Assembly (NCBI GenBank): GCA_938075415.1
Contig: CALJHC010000004.1
Span: 62,001 to 126,000 of the forward strand
Source of the DNA: an uncultured Rubripirellula sp.
GTDB taxonomy: Bacteria; Planctomycetota; Planctomycetia; Pirellulales; Pirellulaceae
Direction of reading: 5' to 3'
Length of the DNA stretch: 64,000 nucleotides
This document shows positions 7,843 through 64,000 of the stretch, one piece after another. The notes beneath the pieces were generated by a model. That model saw only the letters and a list, made by a program, of their open reading frames with translations, searched no databases and was not told the DNA's origin. Position 1 is the first letter of the stretch; every line of letters begins with the position of its first letter. The translations under genes were made by a program, and so were the position numbers.

Positions 7843-8662
7843 TCGACCGTCGTCCTCTCGAAAGCGTCAAAAGAGTCAACTCCAAGCGATTGATTCAGAC
7901 CAACGATTCCAAACACGTTCCTAGCGATCATAGGCACCTTCGTCTCACTGACAACTTCAATCGCCCAATCGACCCACGCATCACCATCGATATTTTTCTG
8001 AAATCAACCTATTTTACCGACCAAGAAATCCAAGCAAACTGCTTCCCTCAGGTTGACACAATAAGAGCTTAGTGAGTTGGAAAGAATCGATCGAGAGAGA
8101 AACTTTGCAGAGGCGGCAAACTCCAGCACGCCCAGATAATCACCAAAAGCAATCCGTCCACGCCCCTGCCTGAATGTCGTTCTGAAAGACAGTGAATCTC
8201 CACTCACTAAGAAAATACCGAAGCATATCAAAATCGCTGATCAAAGCATCATTCCGCCGATCGATTTCATGGCATGCACATCAGTTCCAAAAGATGGCTC
8301 ATATGAATCGGGATTGATGCTTTATTCCGCGAGTATTTATTGAAAGCAATCTCCAATCCAATAATAGAATCCCCCGGTTAATCACTAACGGTACGGCGGT
8401 ACAACACTAGCTGGGTGTTGAAACTGATTACACTGCTCACCGATCCTCCATTCTTGATTGAAGGGCAGGCGACACCGAATTGTAATGCAGGTTAATATGG
8501 GAGAAATTAATGGATCATGCATCAGGCTCTTGGTTCTTGATGGCCGATCGAGTGAGAAGAGAATGCATGACGAAATCGCATGCGAGTCCATCTTTCGACA
8601 GACTAGATAAACACCCCTCACACCAGATAAACACACCTCTGGCTTTTCCTCAGGTACTAAAA
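7843..8662. other. Long intergenic region
   Basis: This 0.8-kb gap lies between the divergent pyruvyl transferase and GH43 genes. Open frames inside it have no recognisable domains and conflict with each other. An imperfect 20-bp direct repeat beginning AGATAAACAC occurs at 8601-8640, just before the GH43 start. Promoters for both genes must lie here but I cannot place them. Confidence 0.35.
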
Positions 8663-10249
8663 ATGCGGAAACCGATGCCACACACTGCTACCGTCAAAAT
8701 TTCGAACCAAACTTTAATGTGCGGTCTCAAAATCCTCTGCATGACGTGCTTATGGATGACAGTACCGATTTCCACCTTGGTTGCTTCGGACGCTGAGGAA
8801 AAAGATGGGCTTGTCTCCTTCAGCCAAAACAACACGGAAACATTCGGCGGAGAATGGCTCCCCGATGGACACCTAATCAAAGTCACTGGAAGCCCCGCTA
8901 AACTTTGCATCGGTCAACAATCTTGGCGCGACTTCATCTTGGAGGTGGAGGTAAAAGCAAACCCTGACTCACAAGCGGGTGTCATTTTCAGAGCTTCACA
9001 GGTGGGTCGTCAAATCGACCAGTACAGCGGCTATTACGTCGGCGTCCATGCAGGTCGGGATTCGGTCATGTGGGGTGCAGCCAACAATCGCTGGCAGCCC
9101 ATTGCACAACGCGCTGTGCCGGTAACACCGGGGACATGGTACACCATCAAACTGATCGTTTTTCAACAACAGTTCAAAGTATGGATTAACCAGACACTCA
9201 TCACGACAAAACGCTTCCCTATCTTCAACGGTGTCGACAACCGCTTCAAGGAAGGAGTCATTGGCTTACGCTCTCTCGGAAGCGGTGCGTCTTTTCGAAA
9301 CTTGAGAATCCACGAATACCATCCGCAAACAAAAAGCAGCACCTACACAAATCCAGTGCAAATCAACTGCGCGGACCCAACAGTCCTCCAGCATCAGGGC
9401 CTTTACTACGCTTACTGCACCTACAGTAAAGACCACCCGAACATGACACGCGGGATTCGGCTTTATACATCTTCAAATCTAGTGCAATGGCATGATCAGG
9501 GTTTCATCATCAAGGCCGAACAAAGCTGGGGAAGATCCAAATTCTGGGCCCCAGATATCGTTCAGAAAAACGGCAAATTCTATCTCTACTATGCGACCGA
9601 CACACGAATTTGCGTCGCGCAGGCAGATAGCCCAAGCGGACCGTTTCAAGAACGAAGTGAATCTCCAATCCTGCCAGAAACCGTTCGGATCGATGCTCAT
9701 GTGTTTCAGGATGACGAAAAAGCCTATTTCTATTATGTCCGGTTCAATCGAGGCAACGAAATTTGGGGCGGCGAACTTAACGATGACATGGTCTCTCTGA
9801 AACAGGATACTTTACGTCTCATGATCAAACCGGACCAAGAATGGGAACGACATCAGGGTGCAATCGCAGAGGGACCGGTAATCCTGAAGCATGACGATAT
9901 CTACTACCTCACCTATTCGGGCAGCCATTTCGAGAGCCCTCAATACGCAGTTGGCTACGCCACCTCCGATAGCCCTCTTGGACCTTGGAAGAAATATCAG
10001 CACAACCCAATCATGAAGTCGACAGCCTATGCCAAGGGAACAGCGCATCACTGCTTTACCGATTCACCAGATGGCACAGAAAAATTCATCATTTATCACC
10101 GCCACCACAATCTACAACAGACCGAACCAAGAAAAATGGCAATTGACCGTGTTCAATTTGTAACACAACCCAAAGGACCGGCCATTTTAGAAATCAACGG
10201 CCCCACAGGTTCGCCTCAACCCTTGGCATCAGGAGCAACCTTGGAGTGA
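8663..10249 (+). CDS. Secreted family 43 glycoside hydrolase with N-terminal concanavalin-like domain
   Basis: The protein (about 528 residues) is predicted to cleave arabinose-, xylose- or galactose-type linkages outside the cytoplasm. After a signal peptide (to about residue 42), residues 50-220 form a LamG/DUF1080-like jelly roll (AGVIFRASQVGRQIDQYSGY ... GVIGLRSLGSGASFRNLRIH). The five-bladed GH43 propeller follows: INCADPTVL supplies the catalytic-base Asp, WAPDIV is the conserved second block, RIDAHVFQDD carries the pKa-modulating Asp, and IAEGPVIL carries the general-acid Glu. All three catalytic acids are present. I chose the ATG at 8663 because it gives a proper signal peptide; an upstream frame extends to 8510 without adding a sensible domain. 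Two sulfatase genes follow on the same strand, suggesting attack on a sulfated marine polysaccharide. The exact substrate cannot be told from sequence. Confidence 0.88.
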   Translation: MRKPMPHTATVKISNQTLMCGLKILCMTCLWMTVPISTLVASDAEEKDGLVSFSQNNTETFGGEWLPDGHLIKVTGSPAKLCIGQQSWRDFILEVEVKANPDSQAGVIFRASQVGRQIDQYSGYYVGVHAGRDSVMWGAANNRWQPIAQRAVPVTPGTWYTIKLIVFQQQFKVWINQTLITTKRFPIFNGVDNRFKEGVIGLRSLGSGASFRNLRIHEYHPQTKSSTYTNPVQINCADPTVLQHQGLYYAYCTYSKDHPNMTRGIRLYTSSNLVQWHDQGFIIKAEQSWGRSKFWAPDIVQKNGKFYLYYATDTRICVAQADSPSGPFQERSESPILPETVRIDAHVFQDDEKAYFYYVRFNRGNEIWGGELNDDMVSLKQDTLRLMIKPDQEWERHQGAIAEGPVILKHDDIYYLTYSGSHFESPQYAVGYATSDSPLGPWKKYQHNPIMKSTAYAKGTAHHCFTDSPDGTEKFIIYHRHHNLQQTEPRKMAIDRVQFVTQPKGPAILEINGPTGSPQPLASGATLE

Positions 10250-52147: not shown

Positions 52148-54112
52148 TCAATAGTTGATTCCCACAAGCAGGTTGAATCCGTACATCTGCAGGTTTTGAC
52201 CTGAATTTTCAGCTAACGATGCGGTGGCTGCACCAAATTCGAAATCATCTGTCAGGAAGGCATAAGACGACGCCATCGAATAATCATCCGACAACTCGAA
52301 GTACTGAAATTCAAAACCGGCTCTTGTGATCAATCGGGAACGACAGCCCACTTTACGCCAGCATTCAAACCCAACCTGCAAACCGGTGTGCATCCGAAGC
52401 TTGGGATCATCGGTGAGCGTGTAAGCGTAGTCGAGTGACCTGGATACCGTTGGGCTCGAACCGGTCGTACTGACAGCAGAAGCCTCGGTAATGGCACTCG
52501 AAGATGCGTCGGACCATAGCCAAGAGACACGCGTATCCCAAAACATCCCAGCGCCGTAATTACCGTTGCTGCAAAAACGTGCAAATGGCTTCCTGCCACG
52601 CAGAGCAAAGGTAGGACCGATACCCTCTAGGCGGTTCTTCGCCATCGCGCTCGAAGACACCTCTACTTTCTCATCTTGATAGGTGCTCAACGCAAAAGCC
52701 GATGACTGTCCGACATAATCCATCTTGCGAAGGCCAATCGCTGAGCCCCAATAGACACCAGCAACGCAAAACTTCTGAGTGATCTCCAGATCGAACGTGC
52801 TTAGATCCACCGACTGTCCGGTGGTGTATTGTTCAAAAATTGAATACGGCTTCCAGGCCCCGCTTTCGTAGACCGTGCTTCCATAACCCCAGTAGACCGC
52901 CTGAAAGCCAAAGACTTTCCCTTGCAAACCAAGGATGCTTCGTTGTCCGTAGCCAAAAGCGCCTTTTGATTCAACGGAATGCTCAATGTCTTCGACTAAA
53001 TCAGTTACTTCGACTTTAGACTTCGAGATTCGGCTCGATGACAAGAATGTAAACTCCGTTGCCAGATACAATCCCTGATCAAAAAGATTCAACGGTCGAA
53101 GTGGTTGAAGCCTTTGCCCCATTGTTTTCATCCAACGGCGTCTGCGACTTCTCAATTGCGGATGATGATGAGTGTGGGAAGTCGCTTCAGTTATTTCCAC
53201 CCAACCGGATTCGGTCGACTCGAGAACCTCATCGCTGCCAATCGCTGGAACCGAGGGCGGAATAATTTCGTAAATCGTCTGCGTTTTCGCTGGCTCCGGC
53301 AGCGTCTCAAGCAAAACTGGCGGTGGAGGAATATTTCCTCTTGCGACTGGAGAAAGTCCAGACCCCAGCGGTTCGTCAATCAACGGAGCCTGCGAAACCA
53401 AGGTGACGGTGTTCGATCCGCCCCTCATCAACGCCGGAAGTATCAGCGACGAACTGAACACCCCTTCATCTGCCTCAGAGGCTGGCATGCTGAAACTCGC
53501 ATCCAGCTCTCGTGATGAAGTCCCTGATGCGGGCTCAATCGCACCCTGGCTTCCTCCCACGCTCCCGGCAATGGAAATCTGCTGTTCCGACGAAACGGCC
53601 ACCGGATTGGGTCCGTCCACTCTTGAATCAGGTGCCCAGATCCCTGAGCCCCTTAACTCTTCAGCCAATAACTCTTCGGCCAAGGTCGTTTTGCCTGACA
53701 ACATGGGATCATTTCCATCAGTCGCTCGTGATGCAGGGCTGACTTGCCTTGCATCAATCAACCCCTGTTTCAGGGAAATACCGGGACTGCTTAACGTGCT
53801 TTCATCAATCAATCCGACCCGTATCGACGGGTCACCCGCTGCGACACCACGCTGTGAACTTTGATTGGTGACCTGAGGAGCCAGACGCACTTCGCCAACA
53901 ATATCCGCTGCTGTCGCCGAATACACACAACACCAAGGCAGCACCAAGCAGCCCAACACAAACACCGCACCGGAATGATTCAGACGCCGCCAATCGTCAA
54001 GACGATTGGTACGTTGCGCACTGTCGCTTGATGTGCTTGATCGCTGGGGCAAATCAGCCCTCATTGAATTCAGTAGGTCCATCTTATCAATGGCTTTCGG
54101 GTGGTTATTCAT
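52148..54112 (-). CDS. Secreted outer-membrane beta-barrel protein, paralogue of the one at 59870
   Basis: The 654-residue protein has a signal segment (about 47-69, GAVFVLGCLVLPWCCVYSAT then AAD), a Ser/Pro/Glu-rich linker predicted disordered (about 70-340), and a C-terminal barrel of about 310 residues. The barrel starts LFDQGLYLATEFTFLS and ends VGINY, an aromatic end typical of the outer-membrane insertion signal. Inside it, GIGPTFALRGRKPF and DLEITQKFCVAGVYWGSAIG match positions of the barrel at 59870. It resembles the Lpg1974/BBP-type pore families of Planctomycetes. Its start lies one base after the C39 peptidase stop (TAA-G-ATG), so the genes are tightly coupled. Confidence 0.75.
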   Translation of the reverse strand: MNNHPKAIDKMDLLNSMRADLPQRSSTSSDSAQRTNRLDDWRRLNHSGAVFVLGCLVLPWCCVYSATAADIVGEVRLAPQVTNQSSQRGVAAGDPSIRVGLIDESTLSSPGISLKQGLIDARQVSPASRATDGNDPMLSGKTTLAEELLAEELRGSGIWAPDSRVDGPNPVAVSSEQQISIAGSVGGSQGAIEPASGTSSRELDASFSMPASEADEGVFSSSLILPALMRGGSNTVTLVSQAPLIDEPLGSGLSPVARGNIPPPPVLLETLPEPAKTQTIYEIIPPSVPAIGSDEVLESTESGWVEITEATSHTHHHPQLRSRRRRWMKTMGQRLQPLRPLNLFDQGLYLATEFTFLSSSRISKSKVEVTDLVEDIEHSVESKGAFGYGQRSILGLQGKVFGFQAVYWGYGSTVYESGAWKPYSIFEQYTTGQSVDLSTFDLEITQKFCVAGVYWGSAIGLRKMDYVGQSSAFALSTYQDEKVEVSSSAMAKNRLEGIGPTFALRGRKPFARFCSNGNYGAGMFWDTRVSWLWSDASSSAITEASAVSTTGSSPTVSRSLDYAYTLTDDPKLRMHTGLQVGFECWRKVGCRSRLITRAGFEFQYFELSDDYSMASSYAFLTDDFEFGAATASLAENSGQNLQMYGFNLLVGINY

Positions 54113-54113
54113 C

Positions 54114-54929
54114 TTACGGGTTCACTCTGCCAGTCAACTGGAACTGGATGAATTGGTTGCTTTGCTTGTAAGTTTCTTTTTCAACTTGCTTAAGGCTCAA
54201 TGGCGCATTCTCTTTGGGCGGTTCACCCGGCTTAATCACCGCAAGAATCGCGTTCTGCTGCCACTGCTCCTGGAACGTTTCGATCAGCACTTTTTTCTTA
54301 CCAAAAATTGGATCTGCAATAAAAACATATTCATCGTCCATACCTCGAACGACCACGAAGTGGTCGTAATCATTAACGGTGATTGCAACCACCAACGGCA
54401 ACTTACTTTCAGCAAGTTTTTCGATAGACAATTTCCCGAGCACGGCGGTATAGCCACCGGTTTGCGCAACGTTTTTCAAATCGGTTAACGTTAATCCATT
54501 CAACACTCGATCGCTAAGTTCCTCTGCCGATAAAATCCTTGCAATAATCACCAACAACGCAGTTTCCGAGACGTTCTCACCCCAGTAATAATTGAGAACC
54601 GTGGCCAAAGCGGCCGCCCCGCATGAGAAGTCACGTTGCTGCATGACGACATTCTCGTTTCGCAACTGCCTCGCGTTCTTCACGTAGGCTTGTGATTTCA
54701 CAAGCTCATCTCGATAGGGGGCTCTTGTTCCGAAACGAAGTGCATTGAATTCTGCCGCTGTCATCTGCGCGTGGACAATAGAATCAGGAGCCTGCGAGGA
54801 AAGTACTGCAAAAAAACTGACGATTAAGCCGACCCGCTTGAGATCAGTTCGCATCCGGTTCCAAAAACCAGTGTTGAACAACCTTAGCCACTTGCTTAGA
54901 AACCTCCTTCGAGGCAAATGATTTATCAT
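54114..54929 (-). CDS. Periplasmic C39-type cysteine peptidase
   Basis: The 271-residue protein has a hydrophobic export segment at about 33-48 after a basic lead, then a stand-alone C39 peptidase domain. The catalytic Cys is Cys103 in VMQQRDFSCGAAALATVLNY, the His is His190 in VNDYDHFVVVRGMD, and the Asp is Asp206 in VFIADPIFGKK. All three are present. There is no ABC-transporter part, unlike bacteriocin exporters; this resembles the stand-alone C39 peptidase FapD of the Fap amyloid pathway. C39 enzymes cut after double-glycine-type leaders. The start has a strong site AGGAGG five bases before the ATG, and that site overlaps the stop codon of the barrel gene upstream, so translation is coupled. 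Confidence 0.85.
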   Translation of the reverse strand: MINHLPRRRFLSKWLRLFNTGFWNRMRTDLKRVGLIVSFFAVLSSQAPDSIVHAQMTAAEFNALRFGTRAPYRDELVKSQAYVKNARQLRNENVVMQQRDFSCGAAALATVLNYYWGENVSETALLVIIARILSAEELSDRVLNGLTLTDLKNVAQTGGYTAVLGKLSIEKLAESKLPLVVAITVNDYDHFVVVRGMDDEYVFIADPIFGKKKVLIETFQEQWQQNAILAVIKPGEPPKENAPLSLKQVEKETYKQSNQFIQFQLTGRVNP

Positions 54930-54941
54930 CAGTACCTCCTA
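54930..54941 (-). promoter_or_regulatory. Strong ribosome-binding site overlapping a stop codon
   Basis: On the minus strand TAGGAGGTACTG leads into the ATG of the C39 peptidase gene. TAG is the stop of the upstream barrel gene. This is the best Shine-Dalgarno sequence I saw in the window, suggesting that the peptidase is made in a fixed ratio to the barrel. Confidence 0.8.
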
Positions 54942-56537
54942 ATAGGTCCAGCGGACACCGAATTCAACATCGTTCGATAAATTCGTCAGGCCATACCGCA
55001 GAAATGGCTCATAATTAGTTCCAAGTTTCGATCGCTTGTTGTTTTTTGGTTTATTTATTGACGCAGAAATCCTTAATGAAAAGGGTTCCGAGCGAGTGCC
55101 AGTGGACGTATTTCCATTAAGCTCAAGTTTTCCCGACGAAGCTCCAGAGAATGACCCACTTAGAGTGACGTTGGGGTTAATTCCGTAACCGACACCCGCC
55201 TGATAAAAAAGCGTGTTACCAACGTTGATATAGTTGTCCGCATCGATGCGAGTTCCGTACGTATGCGTGTAACCAAAGCTACCGAATAGAATCAAAGGAT
55301 CGATTGATTCGGTGACGTTACCGCCCATTGTCAATGTCCAATAACCTGCTCCTAACGTCGCGTCTCGATCCTGTTGTGAAAGTGAAATCTTTCCCTGACC
55401 CGTTGGTGCCGAGACCTGCAGGAATCCCAACAATCGGAACTTGGATTTGTCCGGTGCCCACATGACTCTCGTAAAACCGATCCCTAAATCACCGATGCCA
55501 AACACATCGGAATCTGACTGTGAACCCCCAGCCGTGAGTGACTGTGCTGACCAACCCACTGGTAAACTAAGAAAGCCCTGCAAGTTTTCCATCAAACCAA
55601 TTCTCATCTCGATCGGGGAAGAGATAAGTTGTCGCTTTTGATTGGCATTGACGACCTGTACAGAGGTCGTTCCCTCTTGCAGTAACCCAGCCAACGCGTA
55701 GGAATTGGTGTCGACGGAATAACGGACCCCGTACTCGAATTGATACTGGCCGGGTTCGAGCAGAATCGATCGTTTCTTCAGAAATGCCGGCGTACGCTTT
55801 GGTGGTGGAACTCCAAGTTGGGTTGCTTCGCTCTCTTCTTCTGTAGACCCACCAGATACGGGTTGTTGATTCTGCACCTGAATCACTTGCGACGCCGCAC
55901 CACCCGCAATCGCTATTGCACTTGCAGCAATTGAAGTGTTGGAATTCTCACTAAAGCTGCCGTTAGCGGTTTCCCACTCATTACGTTTCTTTGGTTCTGC
56001 CAACGAATCTGAGTCCGTCGACGTATCGGAAAGGGTGTAATCCACGCTTGAACTCACTGCCGAATCAAGGCGGCGATCCGCGATTGGCATGCGATTCATA
56101 GGCGTATGACGAGTTGGATTATTGTTAACCCAGCCCGAGGCAGCTGATGATGCTAATTCACCACCATTCTCGGTAAGCATTCTTCGCTCAGGAACCTGGC
56201 GATCGCCAGCACCTTCCGCTTCTAAAGTTGTCGGAAGACGCAGCGTGGTTTGAGGCATCGGCAGTCTTAGATAAACATCTTTTTTTGAAACTGCCGGCGC
56301 GGCAGAGTTGGGACCGTTCCCTCTGGGAATCAAAGGACCATGACCTGAAGAGGCCAATGGAGGTGTCGCATTGAGCGCACCATACTGCTGCAAATGAGAA
56401 TCAGTGGCGGGTAAACCTCTCGAATTCTCACCCTCAGAGAGGGCAGGCTCGATCAACGACTGCTCCTGAACAAACAGTAGCCCGAGCGCCGCTAGCGCAA
56501 CCAAGCAGACCGATAAGATGAGTGCTCTGTTTTGCAT
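54939..56537 (-). CDS. Membrane-anchored outer-membrane beta-barrel (transporter-like)
   Basis: The protein of about 532 residues starts with a hydrophobic segment (5-23, ALILSVCLVALAALGLLFVQ) that lacks a clear signal-peptidase site and so may stay anchored in the inner membrane. A Ser/Thr/Pro/Asn-rich linker with no fold runs to about residue 255. The rest is a barrel of the transporter (PF13557-like) type: LLEPGQYQFEYGVRYS ... FGIGDLGIGFTRVMW ... APTGQGKISL ... and the final EFGVRWTY, an outer-membrane C-terminal signal. FapF, the secretion channel of the Fap amyloid system, also combines an N-terminal extension with a barrel, which is one reason I compare this cluster to it. I chose the ATG at 56537; a TTG at 56561 adds eight residues. 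Confidence 0.75.
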   Translation of the reverse strand: MQNRALILSVCLVALAALGLLFVQEQSLIEPALSEGENSRGLPATDSHLQQYGALNATPPLASSGHGPLIPRGNGPNSAAPAVSKKDVYLRLPMPQTTLRLPTTLEAEGAGDRQVPERRMLTENGGELASSAASGWVNNNPTRHTPMNRMPIADRRLDSAVSSSVDYTLSDTSTDSDSLAEPKKRNEWETANGSFSENSNTSIAASAIAIAGGAASQVIQVQNQQPVSGGSTEEESEATQLGVPPPKRTPAFLKKRSILLEPGQYQFEYGVRYSVDTNSYALAGLLQEGTTSVQVVNANQKRQLISSPIEMRIGLMENLQGFLSLPVGWSAQSLTAGGSQSDSDVFGIGDLGIGFTRVMWAPDKSKFRLLGFLQVSAPTGQGKISLSQQDRDATLGAGYWTLTMGGNVTESIDPLILFGSFGYTHTYGTRIDADNYINVGNTLFYQAGVGYGINPNVTLSGSFSGASSGKLELNGNTSTGTRSEPFSLRISASINKPKNNKRSKLGTNYEPFLRYGLTNLSNDVEFGVRWTY

Positions 56538-56624
56538 GGCATCGGATATTCCACACTGCAAATCCCCGTCTGGCAGTGACGAGAACGACTAATTCGCAAG
56601 TTGCACTCAGTGATAGCTGCAAAT

Positions 56625-56655
56625 AAAAAAAAAACCGCGTCTCCCCATGAAACGC
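56625..56655 (-). terminator. Intrinsic terminator inside the actin/barrel cluster
   Basis: On the minus strand GCGTTTC and GAGACGC form a 7-bp stem (one G-U pair) with the loop ATGGG, followed by GG and ten T. It lies 20 bases after the stop of the gene at 56678 and before the barrel gene. It should end or attenuate transcription from the MamK-like gene, splitting the cluster into two units. Confidence 0.8.
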
Positions 56656-56677
56656 TTCGTTGAATGCCCGTCAAAAA

Positions 56678-57928
56678 TCAGGAAGCAAGAGATTTCACCT
56701 CGATGGTGTTAGCAACGATGGCATCAAAAATAGACCGAGTGTCCGGCATAGTGCCATGCTTTGGCAAACGTCGATGGGGATAATCTTCCCCAGCTGCGTA
56801 GCCCATCTCGTTTCCGCTATCATCATCTGAATCGCCAGCTTGATCGTTACCGTCATCCGACAAGGAAGCCACTTCATCCGTCTGTGCGTTAGATTGCTCG
56901 CTGCAATCAGAAACAGCTAGACCTTCAGAATTGCCCGGTGTGTTTGGTGCGACCGGCTTCTCGTTTGTTCCCGAAACATTTGTCTTTAACCGGTCTACGG
57001 CGGAACATTCGTCAGCTGCGATCGGCTCCCGATCCAGACTGGAAACGGCCAGCGGGATGATGCCCTCGCTACTGAGACCCAAAACTGCGTCATGCGTTTC
57101 GGTCCGAGCGTCTTCGGTTGATGTGATTTCAGATGCAGGAGCGACACCACTAGCGTCGCGATCCGATTCATTAGCGGGTTTCTTCCCTGACCCACTTTGC
57201 ACTGGATCCAACTCTGAGGCGAAACCCGATTGTTTCGGAGTATCAGGTTCACCAGGAACCTCACAACAGCTGTCGACCAAATCAGAACGACTCACAGTAG
57301 ACACCGAACTGCTTGCACCCTGCGAAAAAGTTTCCGCCGTTGGCTGCAACGCATTCGGACTGAACTGCGGCCCCCAATTCATGGGTACGCCGATCGGAAT
57401 CGTTGGAAGATACCCGAAAGGAAGTGTGTATGGTGTTGATGCATTGGTCGGCAACGAGTCGCCGAATTGCTGTTCCTCACCACTCAGTCTCTGCCCAACT
57501 TGCCGTGGTGGTGCGACGTTAGCAAACGGGGGCGGATAGACAGGGTGTATCGGGTTCTGTCCAGAGTGCGGTAACGAAGCTTCTGTTGCATCAGATGGCC
57601 CGACACGAAGCATGCTGCCAAGTAGAATGAAAATCAACGTCACGCATCCACCGGCTATGAAGTACTTCAACGCCCGGTATTGATTGCTCGAAAGTTGAAA
57701 GATGACCGTTTCATCAGCAGACGCCGTTTTCTGAACCTCCCTTAGCATTGGGCGATCCGTGCGACCCAATTGGCTGTTTGCCTCACTCGAGACGGCAACG
57801 GGGTACTCAAACTGAGCCATCAAACCAGTGCTACTCATGGCTAACATCAACGCCAAGAGCCACAAACGTCCCTGAAAGGCCGCTTGTTGGCTGATAAATC
57901 GTGTGACGGATGGTTGAGTGTTGGACAT
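56678..57928 (-). CDS. Membrane protein with long acidic disordered tail, unknown function
   Basis: The protein of about 416 residues has a first hydrophobic segment (about 21-37, LWLLALMLAMSSTGLMA), which may be a cleaved signal peptide, and a second at about 86-107 (YFIAGGCVTLIFILLGSML). The segment between them would be periplasmic, placing the remaining 300 residues in the cytoplasm. That tail is Pro-rich at first (HPVYPPPFANVAPP, IPIGVPMNWGP), then acidic and Ser/Asp/Glu-rich (SLSDDGNDQAGDSDDDSGNE), ending with a short conserved-looking helix (RSIFDAIVANTIEVKSL). I do not recognise the family. It follows the MamK-like gene after about 160 bases, so it is a good candidate for a membrane anchor of that filament. 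The ATG at 57928 is preferred to a TTG three codons earlier. Confidence 0.65.
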   Translation of the reverse strand: MSNTQPSVTRFISQQAAFQGRLWLLALMLAMSSTGLMAQFEYPVAVSSEANSQLGRTDRPMLREVQKTASADETVIFQLSSNQYRALKYFIAGGCVTLIFILLGSMLRVGPSDATEASLPHSGQNPIHPVYPPPFANVAPPRQVGQRLSGEEQQFGDSLPTNASTPYTLPFGYLPTIPIGVPMNWGPQFSPNALQPTAETFSQGASSSVSTVSRSDLVDSCCEVPGEPDTPKQSGFASELDPVQSGSGKKPANESDRDASGVAPASEITSTEDARTETHDAVLGLSSEGIIPLAVSSLDREPIAADECSAVDRLKTNVSGTNEKPVAPNTPGNSEGLAVSDCSEQSNAQTDEVASLSDDGNDQAGDSDDDSGNEMGYAAGEDYPHRRLPKHGTMPDTRSIFDAIVANTIEVKSLAS

Positions 57929-58086
57929 GGAAAACAACAGAGATTGGAATCCTCAAATTAAATCAAAGCATCGCAGCTTCGTTACTGCTGTCGGAGCTCT
58001 TGCAGCACGAAACAAACACTTCTATCGGTGGCGATCGATAAGCATCGGTTACCTTAACCCGGAATCGTTTCCGAGAACCCCTCAGG

Positions 58087-59169
58087 CTACGCTGCCTCAC
58101 TCTCAATCTCTGGCTTGAACTTACACAAGAACTGCCACCCTTCATCGGGTAACTGACGAGCGAGTTGCAGTGCTCCGGTGGCACCGGCATACTTGCAGTC
58201 ATGTATCCGTACCACTTCGCATCGTTCACTGATGCTCAGTGATTGCTCAATGTATTCGTCAAGTCCTTGCAACTGACTCCCTCCACCAGCGAGCAGAACC
58301 TTTGCCCCGTCGATGAAGAAATCGTCATTGTCAACCGAAGAAATATGCTTCACCAATCCATCAGTAATTTTACTTGCGAACTGCAAACAAACGCCTCGAA
58401 TGATGTCGGTCAGATCAAATCGGCCCGAACGACCTTCTCGAGTTGGTAGTTCAACAACCGCATCTCGCACTTGTGTGCCCGCAGAACCGTAACGCTCCTT
58501 GATTCGCCTCACTGCGATATCCGAAACTTTCGCGTCAGGATGAGCAGCCTTAATCGCCTCCTTCAATTCAGCGTCGACGTGGTCGCCACCATAACCGAGT
58601 GTCGCTTGATCCTGCTCCGCAGGGAATGCACCGTAGTAGTAACAGTAATCCACGGTTCCCGCACCAATATCGATAATGATGGAATTGTTCGCTTCCGCTC
58701 CCATTCCATATCCAACAGCAAATGGTTCTGAAACGACGGCAACGTATGGCGTTACCGCTTCGATCAAATCAAGAACAAGACGTTGACTGTACACCGAGGC
58801 TCCGGCAGGAATGCCGACAACGCAACGCATCTGTTGCTCGTCGCTAACACCCAATTCTGAAACCGAATGAGAAACCAGTTCACCCGCAGCAGAAAGGTAG
58901 CGATGATCATCCGCGTCTGAAAGCGAATGGAATTGCTGTTTGGTCATCGCTAGCTTCAGCGAATTGCGTTCGAAGGGTCGGACCACATTCAGCGCCTGAC
59001 GATGCTGATTTATGGTTTCTCCAATCACAAAATCGCTTCCGATCATGTGCCGAGCGACCGCGTCGCGAGGAAATCCAACCTCACTACGTACGCAAGTCCG
59101 CCCACCATTTGATGCGGCAGCTGTTGTGAACATTGTTCCTAAATCGATTCCGATGCAGCATTTGTCCAC
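58087..59169 (-). CDS. MamK-like bacterial actin
   Basis: The 360-residue protein has the actin/Hsp70 ATPase fold. Phosphate 1 is GIDLGTMFTTAAAS (7-20), phosphate 2 is IIIDIGAGTVDYCYYY (164-179), and the adenosine motif is VLLAGGGSQLQGLDEYI (291-307). Segments such as VVSEPFAVGYGMGAEANNSI, the block EQDQATLGYGGDHVDAELKE and the C-terminal YAGATGALQLARQLPDEGW follow, as I remember it, the MamK sequence closely, including its end. No Hsp70 substrate-binding domain follows, and the length fits MamK (about 350-360). MamK forms cytoplasmic filaments that position magnetosomes; no other magnetosome gene is here. The start is a GTG at 59169 preceded by GGGGGT. It begins the cluster of envelope genes on the minus strand. 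Confidence 0.85.
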   Translation of the reverse strand: MDKCCIGIDLGTMFTTAAASNGGRTCVRSEVGFPRDAVARHMIGSDFVIGETINQHRQALNVVRPFERNSLKLAMTKQQFHSLSDADDHRYLSAAGELVSHSVSELGVSDEQQMRCVVGIPAGASVYSQRLVLDLIEAVTPYVAVVSEPFAVGYGMGAEANNSIIIDIGAGTVDYCYYYGAFPAEQDQATLGYGGDHVDAELKEAIKAAHPDAKVSDIAVRRIKERYGSAGTQVRDAVVELPTREGRSGRFDLTDIIRGVCLQFASKITDGLVKHISSVDNDDFFIDGAKVLLAGGGSQLQGLDEYIEQSLSISERCEVVRIHDCKYAGATGALQLARQLPDEGWQFLCKFKPEIESEAA

Positions 59170-59869: not shown

Positions 59870-62380
59870 TCAGTAATTAAGCCCGATCAAAAAGGTGAAT
59901 CCGGACAACTTAAGGTAGTTTCGATTTGAACTAGCAAGAGCGTCAACACGACCACCGAAATTTGCCTCATCCGTCAAAAAAGCGAAGGACTGGGCTTCGG
60001 CAACGTTCTTACCCAAGTCCCAGTGCTGGTATTCAAATCCAACACGTCCCATTAACTGCGAACGCGAAAAAACCGGTCGTGTGTACTCCAAGCCAACTTG
60101 GAAACCCAGGGTAAAAATGGAGGAGTCCCGATCGTCAAAGATCAAAGATTTATCCCGCGACCGCGCCGTGGAGGCGCCACCATCACCACCATCGTAGTTA
60201 ACATTTGCTTCGGTGACGGTGCCGCTACTCTCCTCGGCCCATAACCATGCTATTCGTCCATTCCAATAGAGACTCCAAGGAAAGCTGGGATGCGAAGTTC
60301 TCCAGGAATCACAATCTCCCAAACAAGTCTCCAGTCCACACGTGTCACAATCCATTTCCGGCAGAAGCTCACCCGCGTTTTTACCAAATCCTAGTCTCAG
60401 ATTCTTCCGTCCCGAGAGGCCGAATGTCGGGCCCGCACCACGCAGGTAACGTGTTGCTCGGGCAACGGCAGTCAGTTCAAGACTGTCGTGAAGTTGATCC
60501 ACCAAAGATGCTGAGTCTTGTCCATCATACTTAGCATATCGCCCTCCGAAACTACTTTCCCACTGACAACCAAACAGACAATGTTGCTGAGTAATTTCAA
60601 GGTCAACGGTTTCCAACGCGGCGGAGCTTGCAGTGATAAATCGAGGAATTGGTCGATGAGCTTGCCATGATTCACCCAAGACATGATCCGATGCAAACGT
60701 CCAATATTGAACTTTCAATCCAGCGTTACGACCACGGACACCCAGCGTTAGTCGATTCCCAAACCCTAATCCCGATTCAACGTCCTCTGTGACGGTGGAT
60801 TCGTCAAGCATGTCCGTGACACCAACGCGAACGGTTCCTACAGACTTGGGTGCTAAAAAAGTGAACTCATTAGATACGTAAAAACCGCTATCAAAAACTT
60901 GACCAAACCACCCGTATCCAGTACCAACCAACTCGCTGATCATGTGCTTTTCAGAATCTCCCTCAGCATTTGGATCCGGTGCTCCTTCGGCGGATGATTC
61001 ACCATCGGAATCACCAGCTGATTCATTGCCAGAATCAGCAGCTGTCGCGTCATTGGATTCACTTGAGGCGTTTTCAGCTGCTCCAGAGGAAGGCCCCGTC
61101 CCACCTGATTGCTCACCCACAGCCTGCGGGCCAGCCCCGACAGCCTGACCGGGGCTTCGAGGCGGTGCACCATTGGGTAGCGGGTTTGTGGGAGCAGGGC
61201 TTTGCAGTTGTGTCATCGCAATCTGAGAGGACGGTTGATCACCAGCGGTCAAGAAACTCGAATCTGGTAACGCAGAAGGCTGCACGATCGCTTCAAAGAT
61301 TTCCTCGGTTTCATCCTCAATAAAATAGGGATTCGTCGTCAGCGATCCCGACAAAGATTTTGCATCACTTGCCCTAAGCGATTCTGATGCTGCATCGGCT
61401 TCAAGCAATGCCAGCCGAGTTTCTGTTTCGCTACTCGCTGGCTCTGATAGCTCGAGAAACCCTTGTAGTGAAAGATTGTTCCTGATTGACAATACCAACA
61501 ATCCATCTGCGGCTGAGTCGTCAACCAGTTCCTCCACACGTGAACCAAGACTTCGATCAAGCTGTTCCAAAGTCACATCAATTAAGCCTGCTCCTGACGC
61601 CGATCCACCGATGCCAGGATTGTTGCTTTGTTGGGGCGTCCTATCAGGCGATAGCAGGATGAGTGGTGAATCAGGACTTGCCTCGAGCAAGCTTCCCCAC
61701 TCCGATACGGACAACCGCCTGATGCGTTGTCCCAACGTGACGCGAAATTTACCCTCGGCATTCACATTAGCAGGAACAGAATCAAGATCAGAGATCTCTC
61801 GGATCGGTATAGTTGATTGCATTCCAACCAATGACGATTGATGGCCATCGGAGATTAGATCCACTGGTGAATTGAGCAGATCGACCGAAATGCCATCTTG
61901 AATGGGTTCTGATTCGACTGCAGTTTTGCGATTCGAATCGAATTCTCCATCAACCTCTGAAGTGATCCCCATAGGAAGTTCTTCGAGGGAAATGAGATCC
62001 TGCCCTACCTTGCTATTTGGCTGGATACTCGCCCGAGAGGGTGCGTTTTTCACCGAACTTGAATCAGAAACAACTCGTTGATCGGTCTGTGGCATCCCCT
62101 GCCGATTTGCCGAGATTCCACGGACTGATCCTGCTCGGTCTGCCCGATCGTCAGCAGCCTGACCGCCAGTCACTTGATGCTTTGACATCGAAATCACTGA
62201 CTGCGTTTCTGAAGTGTGAATCGCGGTTTCGGGGATCTGCGAGCTTTGAGTCGACTGATCATCGAAGAATGAAAGAAACAACAGCACAGAGACAAGTGAA
62301 ATCAGAAGCAAACCCTGCAGCTGTAGCCGCAGGATAGCTCGTCGCTTTCCCTGTGAATTTGTGTTGTTACCCATCATCAC
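59870..62380 (-). CDS. Membrane-anchored outer-membrane barrel with 430-residue acidic linker
   Basis: The 836-residue protein starts with a short basic lead and one hydrophobic segment (about 19-39, LQGLLLISLVSVLLFLSFFD) without a signal-peptidase site. A long, Ser/Asp/Glu/Gln-rich region follows (40-480, ending GNESAGDSDGESSAEGAPDP). The C-terminal 350 residues form a barrel (FDSGFYVSNEFTFLAPKSVG to the end FLIGLNY) that is a paralogue of the barrel at 52148: GAGPTFGLSGRKNL aligns with GIGPTFALRGRKPF, and both have FLTDxxxFG near the end. It also carries an insertion with five Cys (MDCDTCGLETCLGDCDSW). The start is a GTG at 62380, or one of the ATGs at 62377 and 62374. The divergent small secreted protein gene at 62743 may be its partner. 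Confidence 0.72.
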   Translation of the reverse strand: MMMGNNTNSQGKRRAILRLQLQGLLLISLVSVLLFLSFFDDQSTQSSQIPETAIHTSETQSVISMSKHQVTGGQAADDRADRAGSVRGISANRQGMPQTDQRVVSDSSSVKNAPSRASIQPNSKVGQDLISLEELPMGITSEVDGEFDSNRKTAVESEPIQDGISVDLLNSPVDLISDGHQSSLVGMQSTIPIREISDLDSVPANVNAEGKFRVTLGQRIRRLSVSEWGSLLEASPDSPLILLSPDRTPQQSNNPGIGGSASGAGLIDVTLEQLDRSLGSRVEELVDDSAADGLLVLSIRNNLSLQGFLELSEPASSETETRLALLEADAASESLRASDAKSLSGSLTTNPYFIEDETEEIFEAIVQPSALPDSSFLTAGDQPSSQIAMTQLQSPAPTNPLPNGAPPRSPGQAVGAGPQAVGEQSGGTGPSSGAAENASSESNDATAADSGNESAGDSDGESSAEGAPDPNAEGDSEKHMISELVGTGYGWFGQVFDSGFYVSNEFTFLAPKSVGTVRVGVTDMLDESTVTEDVESGLGFGNRLTLGVRGRNAGLKVQYWTFASDHVLGESWQAHRPIPRFITASSAALETVDLEITQQHCLFGCQWESSFGGRYAKYDGQDSASLVDQLHDSLELTAVARATRYLRGAGPTFGLSGRKNLRLGFGKNAGELLPEMDCDTCGLETCLGDCDSWRTSHPSFPWSLYWNGRIAWLWAEESSGTVTEANVNYDGGDGGASTARSRDKSLIFDDRDSSIFTLGFQVGLEYTRPVFSRSQLMGRVGFEYQHWDLGKNVAEAQSFAFLTDEANFGGRVDALASSNRNYLKLSGFTFLIGLNY

Positions 62381-62733
62381 CCAAAACTCATATGTTTAGA
62401 GCGCAGAAGCACTCCAGATGATTTTGGTATCGTCCAGCGAAACGTAACAAGTGCAACCGAATCTTCCGATTAAATCGATTCTGAGGCAGAAAGTGGACGA
62501 ATTCGTGGAATCAGAGCAACGTGAAACTGCGAATTTCATGTTTCGCGCATTTTTGCAACAATCTCCCCAATTGAACAAAACGTCAAACTCGGAATGGGGA
62601 CTCACAACTTCTGATAATAAATTACACAGAAAGGCACGTGATAAGGACTTCCGAACTAGTGTGGCTCTCAATCAAGAACACCGATGAATCAACAGACGCT
62701 TCCACACCTGTATCGTCCAATTGGGACTCCGAA
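62381..62733. other. Divergent intergenic region
   Basis: A/T-rich region between the barrel gene and the small secreted protein gene, holding both promoters. No repeat or gene seen. Confidence 0.35.
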
Positions 62734-62742
62734 ATGTTAAAG

Positions 62743-63177
62743 ATGAAACAAATACTCCTCGCTTTACTCATCACGTCGTCATTCCAAGTCTCGGCAAAAG
62801 CTGAAGACCTGACTCTTTTTGGCTTGGGCGACATCACTCTGATCTCTTCGGAAACCGGAGAGTCGATTCGCGGGGCCGGTCGCGTCGCCTCTCGCACCAC
62901 TGGGTCAGCCGGTTTGACCGCAACCGTTTTAGACCCGGACAGTGGATCAATTTGGAATTTCAATGTCACCCAATTCAACCAAACATCAGATGATAAAGCC
63001 AACGTCTATGGGACGCAGTATCAGTCAGCACTAAGTTCGACGTTTTCAGACTTGATGGTAGGATTCGGCGATGTTGGCGTCACACTCGGTGATTTCCAAT
63101 TCCAAATGACTGGGTCCGCAGCCAGAGCATCAGCTCGAACCAGCGCGGGCGCGTTGGCCAGTGAAATCTTTAATTAA
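62743..63177 (+). CDS. Small secreted protein, family shared with the gene at 63457
   Basis: The 144-residue protein has a signal peptide (MKQILLALLITSSFQVSAKA, 1-20). The mature part begins EDLTLFGLGDITLISSETG and continues ESIRGAG, then an Ala/Thr/Gly-rich stretch, ATVLDPDSGSIW, and a C-terminal Ala/Ser-rich helix (ARASARTSAGALASEIF). The block LISxE...IRGA aligns with LISES...VRGS of the protein at 63457, and LDPDSGS with YDPSTSS. Hydrophobic residue at -4, Gly at -2 and Ala at -1 make SIRGA resemble a double-glycine-type cleavage site for C39 peptidases. It could be the substrate of the cluster's peptidase. The start may instead be the ATG at 62734, three codons earlier. I know no named family. 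Confidence 0.65.
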   Translation: MKQILLALLITSSFQVSAKAEDLTLFGLGDITLISSETGESIRGAGRVASRTTGSAGLTATVLDPDSGSIWNFNVTQFNQTSDDKANVYGTQYQSALSSTFSDLMVGFGDVGVTLGDFQFQMTGSAARASARTSAGALASEIFN

Positions 63178-63456: not shown

Positions 63457-63924
63457 TCAATAAGTCGACAATGAGAAACCGGTGGCCTGCACTAAGCCAC
63501 GCATCGAGGATTGCAAATCAACAAATGTTGATTCAACCTGAAGTACCGCTTCTCGATCCCAGGTCACGGTGCTTTCGGCAAAAGGCCGCAGGACATTGCT
63601 CTCGGAAACAAAGTCTTCAGCTTCAGTCAATTGGATTGAGTGTCCCTTGATAAAACTGGACGTGGAGGGGTCATACAGCATTCCGGAGATAAAGCTTATT
63701 CCGAAATGTGACGTTTGAAGAGCAGAACCTCGAACTTCCGAGGCGTCTGATTCAGAGATCAACTGTAAACCGGTGATGCCAAAATCTCCTAACCCATCAA
63801 TACTGGCTTGATCTGCCAAGACGCTGGGACTGTGTGCCAAAAAGAAAAAGGTGGCCATCATGACCGGATACAACATTGGTATTCGATGACATCGCGTGAA
63901 CAACGAGCATTGAATGTTTTGCAT
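63457..63924 (-). CDS. Small secreted protein, second member of the family
   Basis: The 155-residue protein has a signal peptide ending near ADQ (residue about 38). The mature part starts SIDGLGDFGITGLQLISESD and continues ASEVRGSA, then GMLYDPSTSSFIKGHSIQLT, and ends in a polar, Ser-rich part (LVQATGFSLSTY). It aligns with the protein at 62743 over about 60 residues, with Val-Arg-Gly-Ser at the place of Ile-Arg-Gly-Ala. The two genes converge and are separated by a terminator. The start is the ATG at 63924, after TTAGAGATCAAA. The gene is complete in the window. Function is unknown; I infer a secreted or surface protein handled by the neighbouring peptidase and barrel. Confidence 0.62.
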   Translation of the reverse strand: MQNIQCSLFTRCHRIPMLYPVMMATFFFLAHSPSVLADQASIDGLGDFGITGLQLISESDASEVRGSALQTSHFGISFISGMLYDPSTSSFIKGHSIQLTEAEDFVSESNVLRPFAESTVTWDREAVLQVESTFVDLQSSMRGLVQATGFSLSTY

Positions 63925-64000
63925 TTTGATCTCTAACTTAGTGAAGGAATGGATTTCGGACTCGCCAGCGGTCAAGAACAGAACGCCCACACAGTTTCCT
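63925..64000. other. Right-edge fragment
   Basis: Upstream sequence of the small secreted protein gene. Too short to say more; the locus may continue beyond the window. Confidence 0.3.

Follow-up and report, generated by a model that had tools for sequence, protein, structure and literature searches.

Why a bacterial actin gene should lie among genes for envelope-spanning barrels and an exported cysteine peptidase is the question raised by the window analyzed here, a 64,000-nucleotide stretch of contig CALJHC010000004.1 (positions 62,001 to 126,000) from an uncultured Rubripirellula sp. An earlier note on this DNA had described five minus-strand ORFs at 52148–59169, encoding an actin, a transmembrane (TM) protein, an anchored barrel, a C39 peptidase, and a second barrel. 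All five genes are present (Table 1), but the interval proved too short, as the same conserved block runs to at least 66 kb and includes one more barrel along with small secreted proteins, two of which lie past the window (65133–65570 and 65626–66081).

Table 1. Features of the cluster in window positions, with the sequence or model evidence for each.
Position	Strand	Feature	Basis or remark
52148..54112	-	Accessory barrel 2; its signal peptide looks cleavable	Paralogue of 59870–62380; hydropathy
54114..54929	-	Exported C39 cysteine peptidase, FapD/FilB-like	Pfam and NCBIfam profiles, alignment
54939..56561	-	FapF homologue: hydrophobic anchor, linker, C-terminal beta barrel	Profile, model, hydropathy
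54939..55838	-	FapF-type barrel domain (modeled)	Profile and AlphaFold2 fold match
56678..57937	-	Linker protein with a signal peptide, a short stretch in the periplasm, a single TM segment, and a cytoplasmic tail	Topology read by eye
56681..56734	-	Linker C-terminal tail SIFDAIVANTIEVKSLAS	Plausibly a divergent version of the actin-partner motif
58087..59169	-	MamK-family actin, 360 aa	Profile, structure-relative search, alignment, tree
59870..62380	-	Accessory barrel 1: beta barrel at the C terminus, preceded by a hydrophobic N-terminal anchor and a linker	Hydropathy and model
62638..63177	+	Likely export substrate, with a Sec signal peptide and a double-glycine-type leader LISSETGESIRGA, followed by G	Likely start near 62743
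63457..63990	-	Probable export substrate and paralogue: leader LISESDASEVRGS, followed by A	Leader alignment

Gene order and the export core

Six further Rubripirellula and Rhodopirellula MAG loci, followed to the contig ends (L014 and L015 are truncated, and one of the six window-clade actin loci is the same contig as G181), share the gene order substrates, barrel 1, actin, linker, FapF-like barrel, C39, barrel 2. Co-conservation of the actin with the barrel and peptidase genes, on which the earlier note had made its proposal depend, is thus found in six loci with differing flanks: outside the block, Rhodopirellula loci carry sulfatases, whereas the Rubripirellula source genome carries a type II secretion (T2SS) cluster. 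Estimates of dN/dS for close pairs were 0.06–0.10 for the actin, 0.12 for barrel 2, 0.13 for C39, 0.28 for the FapF-like barrel, and 0.41 for the linker. In one locus, barrel 2 is broken into two ORFs (L013:9405-11471), either by a real frameshift or by an assembly error. The T2SS gene set (GspE, GspF, GspG, secretin, GspK, and PilM-like; L135, L136) occupies the equivalent of window positions 67.5–88.5 kb, between and next to two substrate arrays. These genes were considered as part of the system and rejected, as Rhodopirellula loci have sulfatases in that place and the association is therefore not conserved.

The export core of the cluster is a divergent Fap/Fil-type system, because it combines a FapF homologue, a FapD-like C39 peptidase, and leader-bearing small secreted proteins. 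A profile of 21 barrel domains matched FapF (5o65) with an E value of 5e-27, the only outer-membrane protein of the PDB that it hit. An AlphaFold2 model of the barrel (pLDDT 76) ranked FapF chains first (E 6e-16, TM 0.71–0.76), followed by the COG4313 structure 4rl8; the score against the NCBIfam FapF equivalog is 29 bits, under its cut-off of 700. Upstream of the barrel, the protein begins with a 19-aa hydrophobic anchor devoid of an obvious signal peptidase (AxA) site, followed by a low-complexity linker of ∼230 aa. The peptidase has an invariant catalytic triad (C103, H190, and D206) and matches the Pfam C39 profile (1e-22), the FapD model (1e-28; 99.8 bits, cut-off 330), the FilB model (2e-20), and the double-glycine protease of PCAT (6mpz, E 6e-10), with both the FapD and the FilB scores under the curated cut-offs. 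The link to Fap export that the earlier note drew from a C39 peptidase and a barrel is therefore firm. Its statement that no described system has this gene set does not hold for the FapD/FapF and FilB/FilC pairs, which are described, and the cluster is a variant of them. Co-located fapD and fapF homologues have been reported in five phyla beyond Proteobacteria (PMC6173800), which means that the pair itself was known before.

The FapF-like barrel and C39 genes were found adjacent to each other in the identical 25 of 197 Pirellulales genomes, of which two have an in-cluster actin. An obligatory place of the actin in the core was rejected on these counts; with the core widespread in its absence, the actin is an addition specific to one lineage, and export as such does not require it, since actin-free clusters are the majority. 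One locus contains tandem C39 duplicates (L084:7273-8106 and 8141-9055) next to one FapF-like barrel.

The two accessory barrels share ∼31% identity. An accessory barrel modeled with a pLDDT of 80 is an outer-membrane beta barrel of generally porin-like form, nearest to a Legionella porin; a search of the PDB by sequence gave no match. Accessory barrel 1 resembles the FapF homologue in layout, with an anchor free of a signal peptidase site and a low-complexity linker of ∼450 aa.

Candidate substrates of the peptidase

Almost every FapF/C39 core has between one and four small proteins close by, each with a Sec signal peptide and a leader. After the signal peptide, the leader takes the form MGLxxMxxMSDxEGxxVRG-x-G, and among 46 substrates it has a hydrophobic residue at −12 (45/46), S or T at −11 (42/46), E, D, or Q at −8 (37/46), V or I at −4 (46/46), R at −3 (44/46), and G at −2 (44/46), with the register aligned by analogy to double-glycine leaders that are already known. 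Compared with the canonical leader (hydrophobic −12, S −11, E −8, hydrophobic −7 and −4, G −2, and G/A −1), positions −12, −11, −8, −4, and −2 fit, while −7 is G or A and −1 is variable. Of ∼350 remaining ORFs in these loci, only one showed the leader, and this entry is a substrate as well. The source genome encodes nine proteins of this kind, confined to two arrays that lie within 24 kb of one contig. Their leaders make these small proteins good candidates for C39 substrates, which the peptidase would cleave at the end of the leader. In two members (L016:3938-4456 and L018:3772-4242) the RG of the leader is replaced by QC, and these may stay uncleaved.

Mature substrate parts of 90–130 aa are rich in G, S, A, N, and T. 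No amyloid repeats were recognizable in the four in-cluster substrates, and no cluster protein matched the FapA, FapB, FapC, or FapE families, other small secreted proteins being present instead. In genome G130, one family member (L083:6730-7338) has curlin-type repeats after its leader (CsgA model, 8e-7); this gene adjoins a FapF/C39 pair, and its product is apparently a curli-like subunit exported by a Fap-type machine.

The actin, its linker, and the envelope anchors

All three ATPase motifs described in the earlier note are present in the actin and conserved in its relatives (phosphate 1, GIDLGT; phosphate 2, IDIGAGTVDYC; adenosine, LAGGGSQLQGLDEYI). Among NCBIfam models the actin scores 273.5 bits against MamK (2e-81; curated cut-off 400), 146 bits against BeeR, and 41 bits against MreB, and it matches MreB_Mbl with an E value of 3e-11; the nearest solved structure by sequence is Magnetospirillum MamK (5jyg, E 2e-47). 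In a tree of 45 actins, the window clade (support 100/100) joins two other Pirellulales actins (94/88), and the group falls with MamK (83/89), apart from BeeR, MreB, FtsA, and ParM. Placement with MamK is of moderate strength, because branches are long and the tree holds a single magnetotactic MamK reference; AlfA was outside its sampling, and a plasmid search for more MamK sequences returned distant actins only. Profile, structure match, and tree agree with the placement in the MamK branch proposed in the earlier note. An actin of the plasmid-segregation type was rejected, as the family search gave no ParM/StbA match and the tree sets the protein apart from ParM. Family scans recognized no mam gene in the cluster, as that note had also observed, and MamI was found neither in the source genome (G000, 87% complete) nor in 19 other genomes. 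A magnetosome remnant was rejected on this basis.

MamK-family actins reach well beyond this cluster. At 1e-30, the MamK model picks up relatives in 143 of 392 Planctomycetota genomes, and 90 exceed the NCBI cut-off; with MamI absent from the 20 genomes, a magnetosome role for these actins is very improbable. Across the 392 genomes, 143 were positive for the actin and 6 for FapF, with G000 the only overlap, which led us to reject a general link between MamK-family actins and Fap export in the phylum and indicates that two otherwise separate modules were brought together. The actin-linker module is also found with other neighbors (L003, L004).

In the wider planctomycete set (L094–L123), the partner gene directly upstream of the actin, which mostly encodes a coiled-coil protein, carries at its C-terminal end a conserved motif such as LxxIFxxNLxL at 23 of 30 loci (4 of the 7 misses have little upstream sequence), compared with 0 of 341 other ORFs of those loci and 1 of 235 control genes. 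Two clade B loci bear the motif on a TM protein, and a Pfam search for a domain in the partner gave nothing useful. This short motif is a candidate actin-binding peptide. In the window clade, by contrast, the linker gene lies downstream of the actin. The linker has ∼60 periplasmic residues and a low-complexity cytoplasmic tail of ∼290 aa, and only its TM region and last 18 residues are well conserved. Its C termini (FDAIVANTIEV, LGDIISHTRYL) have T in place of N at a key position and fit only a relaxed motif written after these tails had been seen; a relation to the actin-partner motif is for this reason plausible rather than proven.

The barrels of actin-bearing clusters differ at their N termini, in calls made from hydropathy and by eye, as were all signal peptide and TM calls. 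For the FapF-like protein, the 19-residue mean hydropathy is 2.59–3.03 in 6 actin-bearing loci and 0.44–2.13 in 16 actin-free loci (of the latter, L084 is ambiguous and the start in L092 uncertain); for barrel 1 the ranges are 2.21–2.53 and 1.14–2.00. In actin-free clusters both proteins have ordinary signal peptides, which barrel 2 keeps in actin-bearing clusters as well. In G130, where a clade B actin lies on a separate contig, the FapF-like barrel has a normal signal peptide. Two barrels thus appear to retain uncleaved inner-membrane anchors in actin-bearing clusters only. As all actin-bearing loci belong to one clade, the anchors and the actin count as a single evolutionary event.

A proposed role for the filament, and its alternatives

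As anatomy, an export core with processed substrates is well supported, as is the addition to it, in one lineage, of a MamK-family actin and a membrane linker. MamK filaments position magnetosomes. The reading we favor, with a probability of about 0.58, is a Fap/Fil-type exporter of probably amyloid-like fiber or matrix subunits whose export sites are organized by the MamK-family filament and the TM linker; the figure is no higher because the filament, tail binding, the tether, and export-site positioning are elements that we infer. Sec would carry the subunits across the inner membrane, the periplasmic C39 would remove their double-glycine-type leader, and the FapF-type barrel, assisted by the two accessory barrels, would pass them through the outer membrane. 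On the cytoplasmic side, the actin filament may bind the C-terminal tail of the linker, which in turn would contact two barrels, accessory barrel 1 and the FapF-type barrel, at their inner-membrane anchors, and the filament could thereby cluster, position, or segregate export sites as MamK does magnetosomes. A bolder version is possible but tentative: that the filament is mechanically coupled to an amyloid-type exporter through the tail-binding linker and the tethered barrels, so that the cytoskeleton places or moves surface fibers, the tail being one use of a general actin-binding motif of MamK-family actins with many non-magnetosome roles across Planctomycetota.

The actin and linker might instead be an independent cytoskeletal module sitting by chance in the export operon of one lineage, as would suit a module that occurs with other neighbors, a core that occurs without it, and cases that all come from one clade. 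We consider such coincidence unlikely, since the place between two export genes is kept over ∼45% divergence while flanks differ, all clade A actins found sit in the export cluster, and the barrel N termini changed in the same lineage. A periplasmic-C39 peptide exporter with an actin, in which the small proteins would serve as bacteriocins, signals, or some other kind of peptide, seems quite unlikely given the FapF fold of the channel, the curlin repeats of one family member, and the length and composition of the mature parts, even though double-glycine leaders with C39 peptidases are typical of peptide export and the in-cluster proteins have no amyloid repeats.

Two further explanations give the actin an active part in transport or movement. 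We know of no periplasmic energy source for Fap export, and for this reason the actin was weighed as an ATP-driven motor or gate, whose ATPase cycle, relayed through the TM segment of the linker to the anchored barrels, would power transport or fiber extension. The conserved ATPase motifs, the linker, and inner-membrane anchors on the channel itself would fit, but most genomes presumably run the same core without an actin, and MamK-family proteins are known as filaments and not as pumps, making this very unlikely. Most improbable of all is a treadmilling filament that drags surface adhesins through the linker and envelope-spanning barrels for gliding or surface rearrangement; the unbroken predicted chain from cytoplasm to surface speaks for it, while peptidoglycan or wall would oppose sliding and the cluster contains no other motility gene.

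Read as an exporter with a positioning filament, the cluster can be set beside several known systems. It shares with the Pseudomonas Fap system (FapA–F; PMC5557850, PMC6173800) an exported FapD-like C39 adjacent to a FapF-type barrel and small Sec-exported substrates. In contrast to Pseudomonas FapF, which has a cleaved signal peptide and a coiled coil, the FapF homologue here has an inner-membrane anchor and a long linker, and the cluster has two extra barrels, an actin, and the TM linker. Its substrates have double-glycine-type leaders, whereas Fap proteins have neither these nor canonical C39 sites (PMC5557850). The target of Pseudomonas FapD is reported as undetermined (PMC5557850, PMC6173800), and the cluster offers candidate substrates for periplasmic peptidases of this type. 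The putative Fil pilus system (NCBIfam) likewise has a C39 and barrel pair, FilB and FilC, which the cluster matches weakly (2e-20 and 6e-9), far under the curated cut-offs; no other Fil gene was recognized among the cluster proteins by the NCBIfam scan, whose library may not hold all Fil models. With curli, the cluster's leader family shares one planctomycete substrate with curlin-type repeats, but no Csg secretion gene was seen, and the exporter is a FapF-type barrel.

On the cytoskeletal side, MamK, the closest characterized actin, positions cell structures together with partners that are membrane-bound or coiled-coil; the cluster actin differs from it in its sub-cut-off score, in a genome in which MamI was not found, and in its tie to an envelope export cluster. 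If physical coupling of actin and exporter holds, this would be, as far as the literature searched shows, the first actin-family filament wired to outer-membrane protein export. MamK-family actins are also common in planctomycetes outside magnetotaxis. In this they recall BeeR, a MamK-related actin of non-magnetotactic Verrucomicrobiota (PMC11929497), although the cluster actin lies on a separate tree branch and scores lower against the BeeR model than against MamK. A BeeR-type actin was also seen in a planctomycete (L005, in G014).
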